NCBI GenBank assembly: GCA_025352625.1
Contig: JANXSR010000389.1
Coordinates: 1-53,456, forward strand
Length of the DNA: 53,456 nucleotides
Reading direction: 5' to 3'
DNA from: Ferruginibacter sp.
Lineage (GTDB): Bacteria > Bacteroidota > Bacteroidia > Chitinophagales > Chitinophagaceae
The stretch's first letter is position 1. Every line of letters begins with the position of its first letter. This document shows positions 12,549 through 16,153 of the stretch, in pieces. The translations under genes and the position numbers were made by a program. A model generated the notes under the pieces. The model had not been told where the DNA came from, made no database searches, and saw nothing but the letters and a program-made list of their open reading frames with translations.

Positions 12549-13538
12549 TTACACCAGTCTCTTCTCCACCAGGTATTCTGCAATCTGCACAGCATTGGTA
12601 GCAGCACCTTTACGCAGGTTGTCGCTTACAATCCAGCAGTTTAAAGTATTGGCCTGAGTCTCATCTCTCCGTATTCTGCCTACAAAAGTTTCATCTTTTT
12701 CATGTGCAGTTAACGGCATTGGATAAATGAAATTAGCTATATCATCCTGCACTACTACACCCGGGGCTTTGCTTAAAAGCTCCCTAACTTCATTCAAATC
12801 AAAATCATTTTCAAATTCTATATTTACACTTTCGCTATGGCCGCCCATTACGGGAATGCGAACTGTGGTAGCAGTTACTTTAATATTGGTATCACCAATA
12901 ATCTTAACGGTTTCGTGTGTCATTTTCATTTCTTCCTTAGTGTAGCCATTCTCTAGAAACACATCTATTTGCGGAATGGCATTCAAATCGATCGGGTATT
13001 TATAAGCCATTTCTCCTTCTACACCTTTCCTTTCATTCATTAATTGTTCAACGGCTTTAACACCGGTACCGGTAACGCTTTGATAAGTAGATACTACAAC
13101 CCTTTTGATCTTGTATTTATCATGCAATGGTTTTAATACCACTACCATTTGAATGGTTGAGCAGTTGGGGTTGGCAATTATTTTATCTTCAGCAGTTAGC
13201 ACACTTGCATTTACTTCTGGCACAACCAATTTTTTTGTTGGATCCATACGCCATGCGCTCGAGTTGTCAATTACTGTAATACCGGCTTCAGCAAATTTTG
13301 GAGCAAGGGCAAGAGAAGTTCCACCGCCGGCTGAAAAAATAGCAATAGCAGGTTTAGCCGCAATGGCAGTTTCATAGCCAACTACCTTATATTTTTTTCC
13401 TTTAAATTCTACTTCTTTTCCAATTGATTTTTCAGAAGCTACCGGAATTAATTCCGTTACATCAAAATTTCTTTCTGCTAACACCTGCAACATTTTAGTA
13501 CCTACCAAACCGGTAGCGCCAACAACAGCAACTTTCAT
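12549..13538 (-). CDS. asd: Aspartate-semialdehyde dehydrogenase
   Basis: MKVAVVGATGLVGTKMLQVLAERNF, IIANPNCSTIQMVVVLKPLHDKY (catalytic Cys), GHSESVNIEFE. Confidence 0.95.
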   Translation of the reverse strand: MKVAVVGATGLVGTKMLQVLAERNFDVTELIPVASEKSIGKEVEFKGKKYKVVGYETAIAAKPAIAIFSAGGGTSLALAPKFAEAGITVIDNSSAWRMDPTKKLVVPEVNASVLTAEDKIIANPNCSTIQMVVVLKPLHDKYKIKRVVVSTYQSVTGTGVKAVEQLMNERKGVEGEMAYKYPIDLNAIPQIDVFLENGYTKEEMKMTHETVKIIGDTNIKVTATTVRIPVMGGHSESVNIEFENDFDLNEVRELLSKAPGVVVQDDIANFIYPMPLTAHEKDETFVGRIRRDETQANTLNCWIVSDNLRKGAATNAVQIAEYLVEKRLV

Positions 13539-13619: not shown

Positions 13620-13649
13620 AAAATAAAACCTTCCGTTTTTGGCGGAAGG
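13620..13649 (-). terminator. Terminator-like hairpin in the asd 5' leader (attenuator; regions 3:4)
   Basis: Minus strand CCTTCCG-CCAAAAA-CGGAAGG followed by TTTTATTTT; no minus-strand gene lies upstream for it to terminate. Confidence 0.7.
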
Positions 13650-13693
13650 CTGTGCATATTGTGTAACAAACAAAATACTAATTTACCTTCCGC
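13642..13693 (-). promoter_or_regulatory. Alternative antiterminator pairing (regions 2:3) in the asd leader
   Basis: Minus strand GCGGAAGG (13693-13686) is perfectly complementary to CCTTCCGC (13649-13642), the left arm of the terminator. Confidence 0.65.
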
Positions 13694-13739
13694 TACCGGA
13701 ATGTTTCTTGGTTGTTTTTGTATGTTTTATCGTTATCAT
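13683..13739 (-). CDS. Putative Thr/Lys-rich leader peptide MITIKHTKTTKKHSGSGR*
   Basis: 18-codon ORF ATG ATA ACG ATA AAA CAT ACA AAA ACA ACC AAG AAA CAT TCC GGT AGC GGA AGG TAA; 4 Thr, 4 Lys and 2 Ile codons; the last codons overlap the antiterminator arm. Confidence 0.6.
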   Translation of the reverse strand: MITIKHTKTTKKHSGSGR

Positions 13740-13746
13740 TATAAAA

Positions 13747-13778
13747 CGAAAATAGCTACAATTTAATAATCAACCAAA
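13747..13778 (-). promoter_or_regulatory. Candidate Bacteroidetes-type promoter for the asd leader
   Basis: Minus-strand TTTG (13778-13775), 20-nt spacer, TATTTTCG (13754-13747; consensus TAnnTTTG). Confidence 0.35.
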
Positions 13779-13963: not shown

Positions 13964-16153
13964 ATGACTAAAAAAAGGCTACTTTTTCTACAGGTAATAA
14001 TCTGGAGTTATTTCATAACCCATGTAGTAGCATCAGAAAATTTCAAGGATGTGTATTTTGCAAATAATGCTATACAGGAAGAAGGTTCAGTTACCAGGAT
14101 TATTAATACATTTTTTCAATTTCAAAACAGCAGCAACATTGAAGTTTCTGAACAAAAATATTTTTTAAATGATAGCAAGGTAAAGACTTTTCTGTCGGAT
14201 GCAATAGCGCCTGTTATACAATCAACAACAGTAACTTCGGCTTATGAATTAGATGTATTATTTGATCAGTCATTGGACAGAGCAAGCAGCGAGGAAACAA
14301 ATAATTATGTTGTCAATAATTCAATAAATTCTCCCACAACAGCTGTATTGGATGCAATTAATGCTGCATTGGTTCATTTAACATTTGCAAATAATTTCCC
14401 CAATGGAAAAAATTGCCAGCTTACTGTAAATAATATAAAAGATCTTTCAGGCAATGCCATAGTAAATGCAACAGCAACGTTTATTTATATTGTTCCTTAT
14501 ACAACACAACAGTATGATGTTGTAATAGATGAAATAATGGCCGATCCAACACCTGTTGTAGCATTGCCAAATAATGAATGGATAGAATTACGCAATACTT
14601 CTGCCACTGCCATTAACCTAAAGGGATGGAAGATCGGCGACCTTAACAGCATAAGTGGAGCAATGCCCAATTTTATTTTACAGCCAGATAGTTTTGTAAT
14701 TATCTGCACCGGCAGTGCAGTGGCTACCATGGTGCCATTTGGAAAAACAATAGCTGTAAGTGCCTTTCCCTCACTTGATAATGATGCCGATCAGCTATCG
14801 CTTATTTCTGCTGAGGGCAAAATAATTCATGCAGTTAGTTATTCAATTGCCTGGTTCCAAAACGAATTAAAGAAAGCTGGTGGATGGACACTTGAAATGA
14901 TTGACACAAGAAATCCATGCTCGGGTATTAGTAACTGGAAAGCAAGTACAGATTTGAGAGGCGGTTCGCCAGGTAGTAAAAATGCAACCCAAGCAATTAA
15001 TCCTGATCAATCAGCACCCAAACTTTTACGGGCTTACGCAGTAGATAATATAACCGTTACCTTGGTTTTTGATGAACCTTTGGATAGTCTTAAAGCTGCT
15101 GTTGTAGCAGGTTATTCAATCAGCGATGGCATTGGCTTACCAGTTACTGCGGTTGCAGTGTCTCCTATATTTGATAAAGTAAATCTTCGTTTAAGTACAC
15201 CGCTGGCGACTTCAAAAATTTACACCATCACCACTTCCGCCATTACAGATTGTGTGGGCAATGCAATCAGTTCAAAAAACACTGCCAGGGTCGGCATAAG
15301 TCAAATAGCAGACAGCCTGGATATTGTAATCAACGAAATTTTATTTAATCCGCCACCAACCGGAAGTGATTATGTAGAAATTTATAACCGTAGTAACAAG
15401 GTGATTGATCTTAGACAAACCTATATTGCTAACCGCAGCAGTAATGGCACTATCAGCAGCATTACCCAAATAAGCAAAGAAAACTATTTGTTTTTTCCGC
15501 AGGATTTCATGGTGCTTACACCTGATGTAACTTATGTAAAAGCAACTTACATCAACCAAAATCCGAATGCATTTATTGCAATCAATCTTCCATCTTTTAA
15601 TGACGACAAAGGCAATACACTTATTTTAAATGCACAGGGTAATATAGTAGATGAATTAGCCTATAGCGATAAATGGCATTTCAAATTATTAGATAATGCA
15701 GAAGGTGTAGCGTTGGAAAGAATTGATTACAACGCTACCACTCAATATGCGGACAACTGGCATTCAGCAGCTACCAGCGTAGGTTATGGTACACCTACGT
15801 ATAAAAATTCGCAATATCACATGAATAATGGAGTGAAGGGAGATATAAAATTATCGCCGGAAATTGTATCGCCGGATAATGATGGCCAGGATGATTTTGC
15901 TACTCTTGAATATAATTTTCCGGAACCGGGTTATGTAGCTACAATTACTATTTTTGATGCCGTCGGGCGTCCGGTTCGCTACCTGCAGCGCAATGCCCTG
16001 TGTGGTACAAAAGGAAGTTTTAAATGGGATGGGTTGGGAGAAAAAAATCAATCATTGGTAATTGGAGTTTATATTGTGTACACAACAATTTTTAACCTTC
16101 AAGGAAAGACCAAACAATTTAAAATACCGCTTGTATTGGCAAGGAGAAATTAA
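13964..16153 (+). CDS. Secreted protein with lamin-tail (LTD)-like and Ig-like (SbsA-type) domains and a T9SS-like C-terminal domain
   Basis: Two LTD-like segments (DVVIDEIMADPTPVVALPNNEWIELRNTS; DIVINEILFNPPPTGSDYVEIYNRSN); C-terminus LSPEIVSPDNDGQDDFATLEYNFPEPGYVATITIFDAVGRPVR...GVYIVYTTIFN. Confidence 0.85.
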   Translation: MTKKRLLFLQVIIWSYFITHVVASENFKDVYFANNAIQEEGSVTRIINTFFQFQNSSNIEVSEQKYFLNDSKVKTFLSDAIAPVIQSTTVTSAYELDVLFDQSLDRASSEETNNYVVNNSINSPTTAVLDAINAALVHLTFANNFPNGKNCQLTVNNIKDLSGNAIVNATATFIYIVPYTTQQYDVVIDEIMADPTPVVALPNNEWIELRNTSATAINLKGWKIGDLNSISGAMPNFILQPDSFVIICTGSAVATMVPFGKTIAVSAFPSLDNDADQLSLISAEGKIIHAVSYSIAWFQNELKKAGGWTLEMIDTRNPCSGISNWKASTDLRGGSPGSKNATQAINPDQSAPKLLRAYAVDNITVTLVFDEPLDSLKAAVVAGYSISDGIGLPVTAVAVSPIFDKVNLRLSTPLATSKIYTITTSAITDCVGNAISSKNTARVGISQIADSLDIVINEILFNPPPTGSDYVEIYNRSNKVIDLRQTYIANRSSNGTISSITQISKENYLFFPQDFMVLTPDVTYVKATYINQNPNAFIAINLPSFNDDKGNTLILNAQGNIVDELAYSDKWHFKLLDNAEGVALERIDYNATTQYADNWHSAATSVGYGTPTYKNSQYHMNNGVKGDIKLSPEIVSPDNDGQDDFATLEYNFPEPGYVATITIFDAVGRPVRYLQRNALCGTKGSFKWDGLGEKNQSLVIGVYIVYTTIFNLQGKTKQFKIPLVLARRN

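Follow-up and report, generated by a model that had tools for sequence, protein, structure and literature searches.

The asd gene of this Ferruginibacter sp. is very probably controlled by a ribosome-mediated transcription attenuator that senses the supply of lysyl-tRNA, as judged from the sequence of its leader and of related leaders. The leader lies on the minus strand of the window, i.e. the whole stretch of 53,456 nucleotides analysed here. Its sequence elements, their pairing potential, conservation and covariation, and the positions of the Lys codons can be read directly, and an attenuator of asd, already proposed in an earlier note on this DNA, is strongly supported: the element is conserved and covaries among relatives, and hisG and thrA of this genome have parallel leaders of the His and Thr types.

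Organization of the asd leader

The leader ORF, regions 2 to 4 and the U tract were all located where the earlier note had placed them, and the elements of the locus are as follows.

12549–13538, minus strand: asd, aspartate-semialdehyde dehydrogenase, the putatively regulated gene (TIGR01296, 431.6 bits, cut-off 324.2)
13620–13628, minus strand: U tract of the intrinsic terminator, TTTTATTTT (sequence and terminator scan)
13629–13635, minus strand: segment 4, CGGAAGG (sequence and pairing test)
13642–13649, minus strand: segment 3, CCTTCCGC (sequence and pairing test)
13686–13693, minus strand: segment 2, GCGGAAGG (sequence and pairing test)
13697–13701, minus strand: segment 1, TTCCG, forming a 5-bp hairpin with segment 2 (loop GTAG)
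13704–13709, minus strand: control codons Lys11-Lys12 (AAG AAA), 13–16 nt 5′ of segment 2
13683–13739, minus strand: leader peptide ORF, MITIKHTKTTKKHSGSGR followed by a stop (read in the sequence, kept in relatives, third codon position most variable)
13747–13754, minus strand: −7 promoter box TATTTTCG, fitting the Bacteroidota sigma-A consensus TAnnTTTG
13775–13778, minus strand: TTTG, seen in the sequence 20 nt 5′ of the −7 box, a possible −33 element

The identity of Asd was confirmed by TIGR01296 and NF011456, both above cut-off; its ATG at 13538 lies 81 nt beyond the U tract, close to the roughly 80 nt given in the earlier note. The closest upstream gene (13964–16153, plus strand) is divergent, again in agreement with that note. 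Segment 1, which was absent from the earlier description, runs from 13701 to 13697 and complements CGGAA at 13692–13688, the scan reporting the hairpin as 13688–13701; since segment 1 pairs with segment 2, the classical four-segment attenuator layout is complete. The pairings 1:2, 2:3 and 3:4 are mutually exclusive, with folding energies of −6.8, −20.0 and −12.2 kcal/mol, respectively, and segment 2 overlaps the end of the leader ORF. The 3:4 hairpin was detected by the terminator scan, and the leader as a whole is more stable than shuffled versions of itself (z = −3.6). The architecture exceeds chance expectation. A strict definition asked for a 7-bp terminator followed by a T tract, an alternative pairing likewise of 7 bp and an ORF whose end overlaps that pairing; when the 425-nt intergenic region was shuffled 3000 times by dinucleotides, 5 shuffles satisfied it, 2 of them with at least four Lys.

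For the start of transcription, ribosome stalling, termination and the response to lysine, we infer the following course. RNA polymerase would start approximately 3 nt ahead of the leader ATG, and a ribosome would load at once. With ample lysine, the ribosome would pass Lys11-Lys12, reach the stop codon and cover segment 2, whereupon 3:4 would pair, transcription would terminate at the U tract and asd expression would stay low. When charged tRNA-Lys is scarce, the ribosome would stall at Lys11-Lys12, covering segment 1 and freeing segment 2, which would then pair with segment 3 and block 3:4, so that asd would be transcribed. If the leader went untranslated, 1:2 would be the first hairpin to form, which would leave the terminator on. 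Given usual footprints, a ribosome with Lys12 in its A site would cover the ORF to about nt 46, and segment 2 starts at nt 47.

The earlier note had held the short 5′ UTR against the model. We predict from the −7 box, which in Bacteroidota spans −12 to −5 (PMC9723704), that transcription starts at approximately 13742, leaving a 5′ UTR of about 3 nt. A −7 box was observed 4–10 nt (mostly 7–8 nt) ahead of the leader ATG in 38 of the 39 leaders from the same genus, and the distance was 7–8 nt in 26 of these 38 relatives; because this very short spacing is conserved, near-leaderless initiation is probably real and poses no objection. The rarity of leaderless mRNAs in Bacteroidota, given as 3.7% and 5.5% in PMC7366714 and PMC9723704, counts against it, and leaderless leader peptides have a precedent in trpL of Sinorhizobium (PMC10117765).

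Conservation and alternative pairing in relatives

Comparison of asd upstream regions revealed the same leader at 39 loci of the genus. The features that the earlier note had proposed to look for in relatives, a short leader ORF with covarying 2:3 and 3:4 stems, were found conserved at these loci and in other families, the ORF being Lys-rich. A covariance model (R1), applied to same-genus genomes at E < 1e-8 and to other genera, matched 40 of 94 same-genus genomes, leaving about half of the genus without a match to the asd leader; in other genera, asd was the next gene in 20 of 26 fetched loci. Weak R1 matches away from asd within the genus turned out to be hisG leaders or unrelated terminators. 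A wider model (R2), built from alignment A2, matched 141 of 200 family genomes (a count that includes a few hisG leaders) in 78 of 104 genera, and, elsewhere in the class, located the asd leader in five further families, where asd lies downstream at 16 loci. The leader is present at named asd loci of Limnovirga, Flavihumibacter, Niastella, Filimonas and Parafilimonas, including the culturable Niastella yeongjuensis (L362) and Limnovirga soli (L335), and at those of unnamed Chitinophagaceae or Bacteroidota MAGs; none was found at the sampled asd loci of Pedobacter, Mucilaginibacter, Flavobacterium, Dyadobacter and Spirosoma. Of 80 named asd loci, 21 gave a covariance-model match, and 17 of these had the strict architecture; none of the other 59 did. 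Moreover, among the sampled congeners, 20 of the 26 that have hisG retained the leader, vs 5 of the 34 that lack this gene (Fisher P = 1.4e-6, uncorrected for phylogeny), as if the leader had been lost along with abandoned amino-acid synthesis.

The pairing test covered 86 leaders, with segment 2 picked by a fixed core. For 2:3, segments scored 7.17 of 8 pairs with their own partners, and the best of 1000 shuffles reached 6.52; for 3:4, the corresponding values were 7.79 and 6.99. The segment 3 core changes from CCTTCC in Lys leaders to GCTTAC in His leaders, and segments 2 and 4 change to GTAAGC; in both pairings, 22 both-side changes were observed at two positions. Within asd leaders alone, the signal was smaller (7.10 vs 7.05 for 2:3; 7.80 vs 7.55 for 3:4) because CCTTCC is nearly fixed there, and strict covariation therefore comes mostly from comparing leader classes and from the flanking pair. 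Where leaders of other families have an additional T in segment 3 (CCTTTCC), most have a corresponding additional A in segment 2 (GGAAAGG). Of 84 leaders, 82 could form a 1:2-type hairpin, and segment 2 is weak in a few relatives (L042, L046, L075, L080). Relatives thus keep both the control codons and the pairings, with compensating changes.

A T-rich stretch, TTTTGTTTGT / TTTGTATGT, lies between segments 2 and 3 (13675–13666 in the window) and is common to Lys and His leaders (e.g., L148, L167); it is perhaps a polymerase pause signal or a part of the antiterminator.

The leader ORF itself bears the marks of a coding sequence: the mismatch per codon position was 0.25, 0.38 and 0.47 from first to third, and Lys codons swap AAA and AAG. 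This variation fits a coding frame, and the leader is probably translated, judging by its codon pattern. Alternatively, the ORF could be incidental and the element could serve as a constitutive terminator, as an insulator or as a small RNA or peptide acting in trans; a stable short RNA would arise from the locus in any case. Such an arrangement is highly improbable given the coding constraint, the retained alternative pairing and the parallel His and Thr leaders, whose codons fit their genes. A ligand-binding riboswitch (e.g., a lysine riboswitch) or a T-box, forms of control frequent for lysine genes in other phyla, has next to no chance of being the correct description: the leader is too short for either fold and carries a conserved ORF instead. 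Rfam yielded no match at gathering thresholds in the window, and no riboswitch, T-box or Thr leader family matched the leader even at E up to 10.

Lysine as the putative signal

Every leader contains Lys (mean 4.2), and each of the 61 distinct Lys-type peptides has at least two. The Lys columns of the alignment hold this residue in 55, 47, 55 and 48 of the 61, with those of Lys11 and Lys12 at 55/61 and 48/61. His holds one column (48/61), lies upstream of or beside the control position in the Lys leaders and is missing from some relatives.

The same genome supplies points of reference. Its hisG gene is preceded by a His-run leader with the segments GGTAAGC / GCTTAC / GTAAGC (L199; G000:C355:21565-21706), found at hisG in nearly all sampled congeners that have the gene. 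Its thrA gene (aspartokinase-homoserine dehydrogenase) follows a Thr/Ile-rich leader (L255; G000:C232:5000-6400, minus strand) that ends in ...TTIFTTGTTR and a stop, inside CAACCCGTTAAGGGTTG, and similar Thr/Ile leaders occur in sampled congeners. These two putative leaders serve as internal controls for the asd leader. When leaders were aligned on segment 2, the hisG leaders of the genus, that of this genome among them, carried His at codons −8, −7 and −6 in 100, 100 and 94%, and Lys leaders carried Lys in 51% at codon −7 and 76% at −6; Lys11-Lys12 of the asd leader aligns with the His run. Control codons match the pathway end product here, being Lys codons, and both asd and dapA act in lysine synthesis. 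In other genera, dapA, a lysine-branch gene, is preceded by the same Lys leader, and some genomes have both asd and dapA leaders (G194, G265, G282). The dapA upstream regions of the own genus held only terminators of upstream genes and no Lys leader, so the dapA copies are known from other genera only.

The earlier note had favored a dual sensor, in which a ribosome stalled at Thr codons or at Lys codons would switch asd on, and the peptide of this leader indeed has four Thr besides four Lys. Thr is also common in the leaders of the family, at alignment column 8 (46/61) and at column 11, directly before the Lys pair (33/61), and the Sinorhizobium sORF SEP5, with Thr and Lys codon clusters 5′ of an aspartate-pathway gene, has been proposed as a leader peptide (PMC10117765). 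We nevertheless consider dual sensing improbable, since column 8 is too distant, on the upstream side, to serve as the control position, column 11 frequently has Ile, Ser or Val instead, Lys leaders precede dapA, and thrA has a separate Thr/Ile leader. In the asd leaders of other families, Lys makes up 29.1% of residues and mostly adjoins segment 2 as a pair, whereas Thr accounts for 6 of 254. Joint conservation of Thr and Lys at the control position was not observed: Lys persists in all relatives, and Thr is lost outside the family and partly within it. Collectively, the conserved Lys at the control position, the fading Thr, the dapA leaders and the separate thrA and hisG leaders make lysine the most likely signal, and the asd attenuator appears to sense chiefly lysine, not Thr and Lys together.

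Asd leaders of other families (L280-L300) carry Met and Cys beside the Lys pair (CMKK, KMKK), possibly a second signal. A broader arrangement can be entertained only tentatively, and we think it unlikely: a Bacteroidota-wide regulon of near-leaderless lysine leader peptides at asd and, in other genera, at dapA and an aminotransferase-aspartokinase pair, where a second residue particular to the lineage (Thr here, Met/Cys in the other families) would add a second aspartate-family signal and make the asd leader a multivalent sensor.

Relation to known attenuators

The lysine-sensing attenuator proposed here shares with hisL-type his attenuators, including the hisG leader of its own genome, a short ORF that carries its control codons in a run, the 1:2, 2:3 and 3:4 pairings and a U-tract terminator, and in both segment 2 begins approximately 45–48 nt after the ATG. 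It differs in having Lys rather than His codons and CCTTCC/GGAAGG rather than GCTTAC/GTAAGC, and in the gene it would control, asd. E. coli thrL is similar in acting on an aspartate-family target through leader-peptide attenuation; it uses Thr and Ile codons, whereas the leader at asd here uses Lys, and thrA here has a Thr/Ile leader of its own. The familiar means of lysine control are mostly riboswitches, T-boxes and DNA-binding regulators.

In Flavobacterium psychrophilum, also of the Bacteroidota, structured 5′ elements with clues to leader peptides precede amino-acid operons including hisG and have no Rfam family, and the available portion of that report names no lysine or asd leader (PMC9723704). 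SEP5 of Sinorhizobium meliloti likewise combines a Thr and Lys codon cluster with a position in the 5′ UTR of a gene for the aspartate pathway; it belongs to another phylum, is conserved in Sinorhizobium only and, in the accessible text, comes with no terminator/antiterminator analysis (PMC10117765). Naville and Gautheret (2010) mention neither lysine nor Bacteroidetes (PMC2965389), and we found no description of a lysine leader peptide or attenuator in open papers. Within that literature, the design is that of a textbook attenuator, and its lysine specificity and breadth across Bacteroidota do not seem to have been described. If the model holds, lysine would join the amino acids sensed by leader-peptide attenuation, and the leader would account for the way in which flux into the aspartate family is set at Asd in these Bacteroidota. 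Classical attenuation, represented in a single genome by leaders for His, Thr and Lys, would be a main control system in a phylum where it has received little study. The asd leader further offers a ready test case for attenuation from near-leaderless messages.

A related Lys/Arg-rich leader with a GCTTACC-type terminator was observed at two loci (L145, L146) ahead of an aspartate-type aminotransferase gene, which in L146 is followed by aspartokinase.
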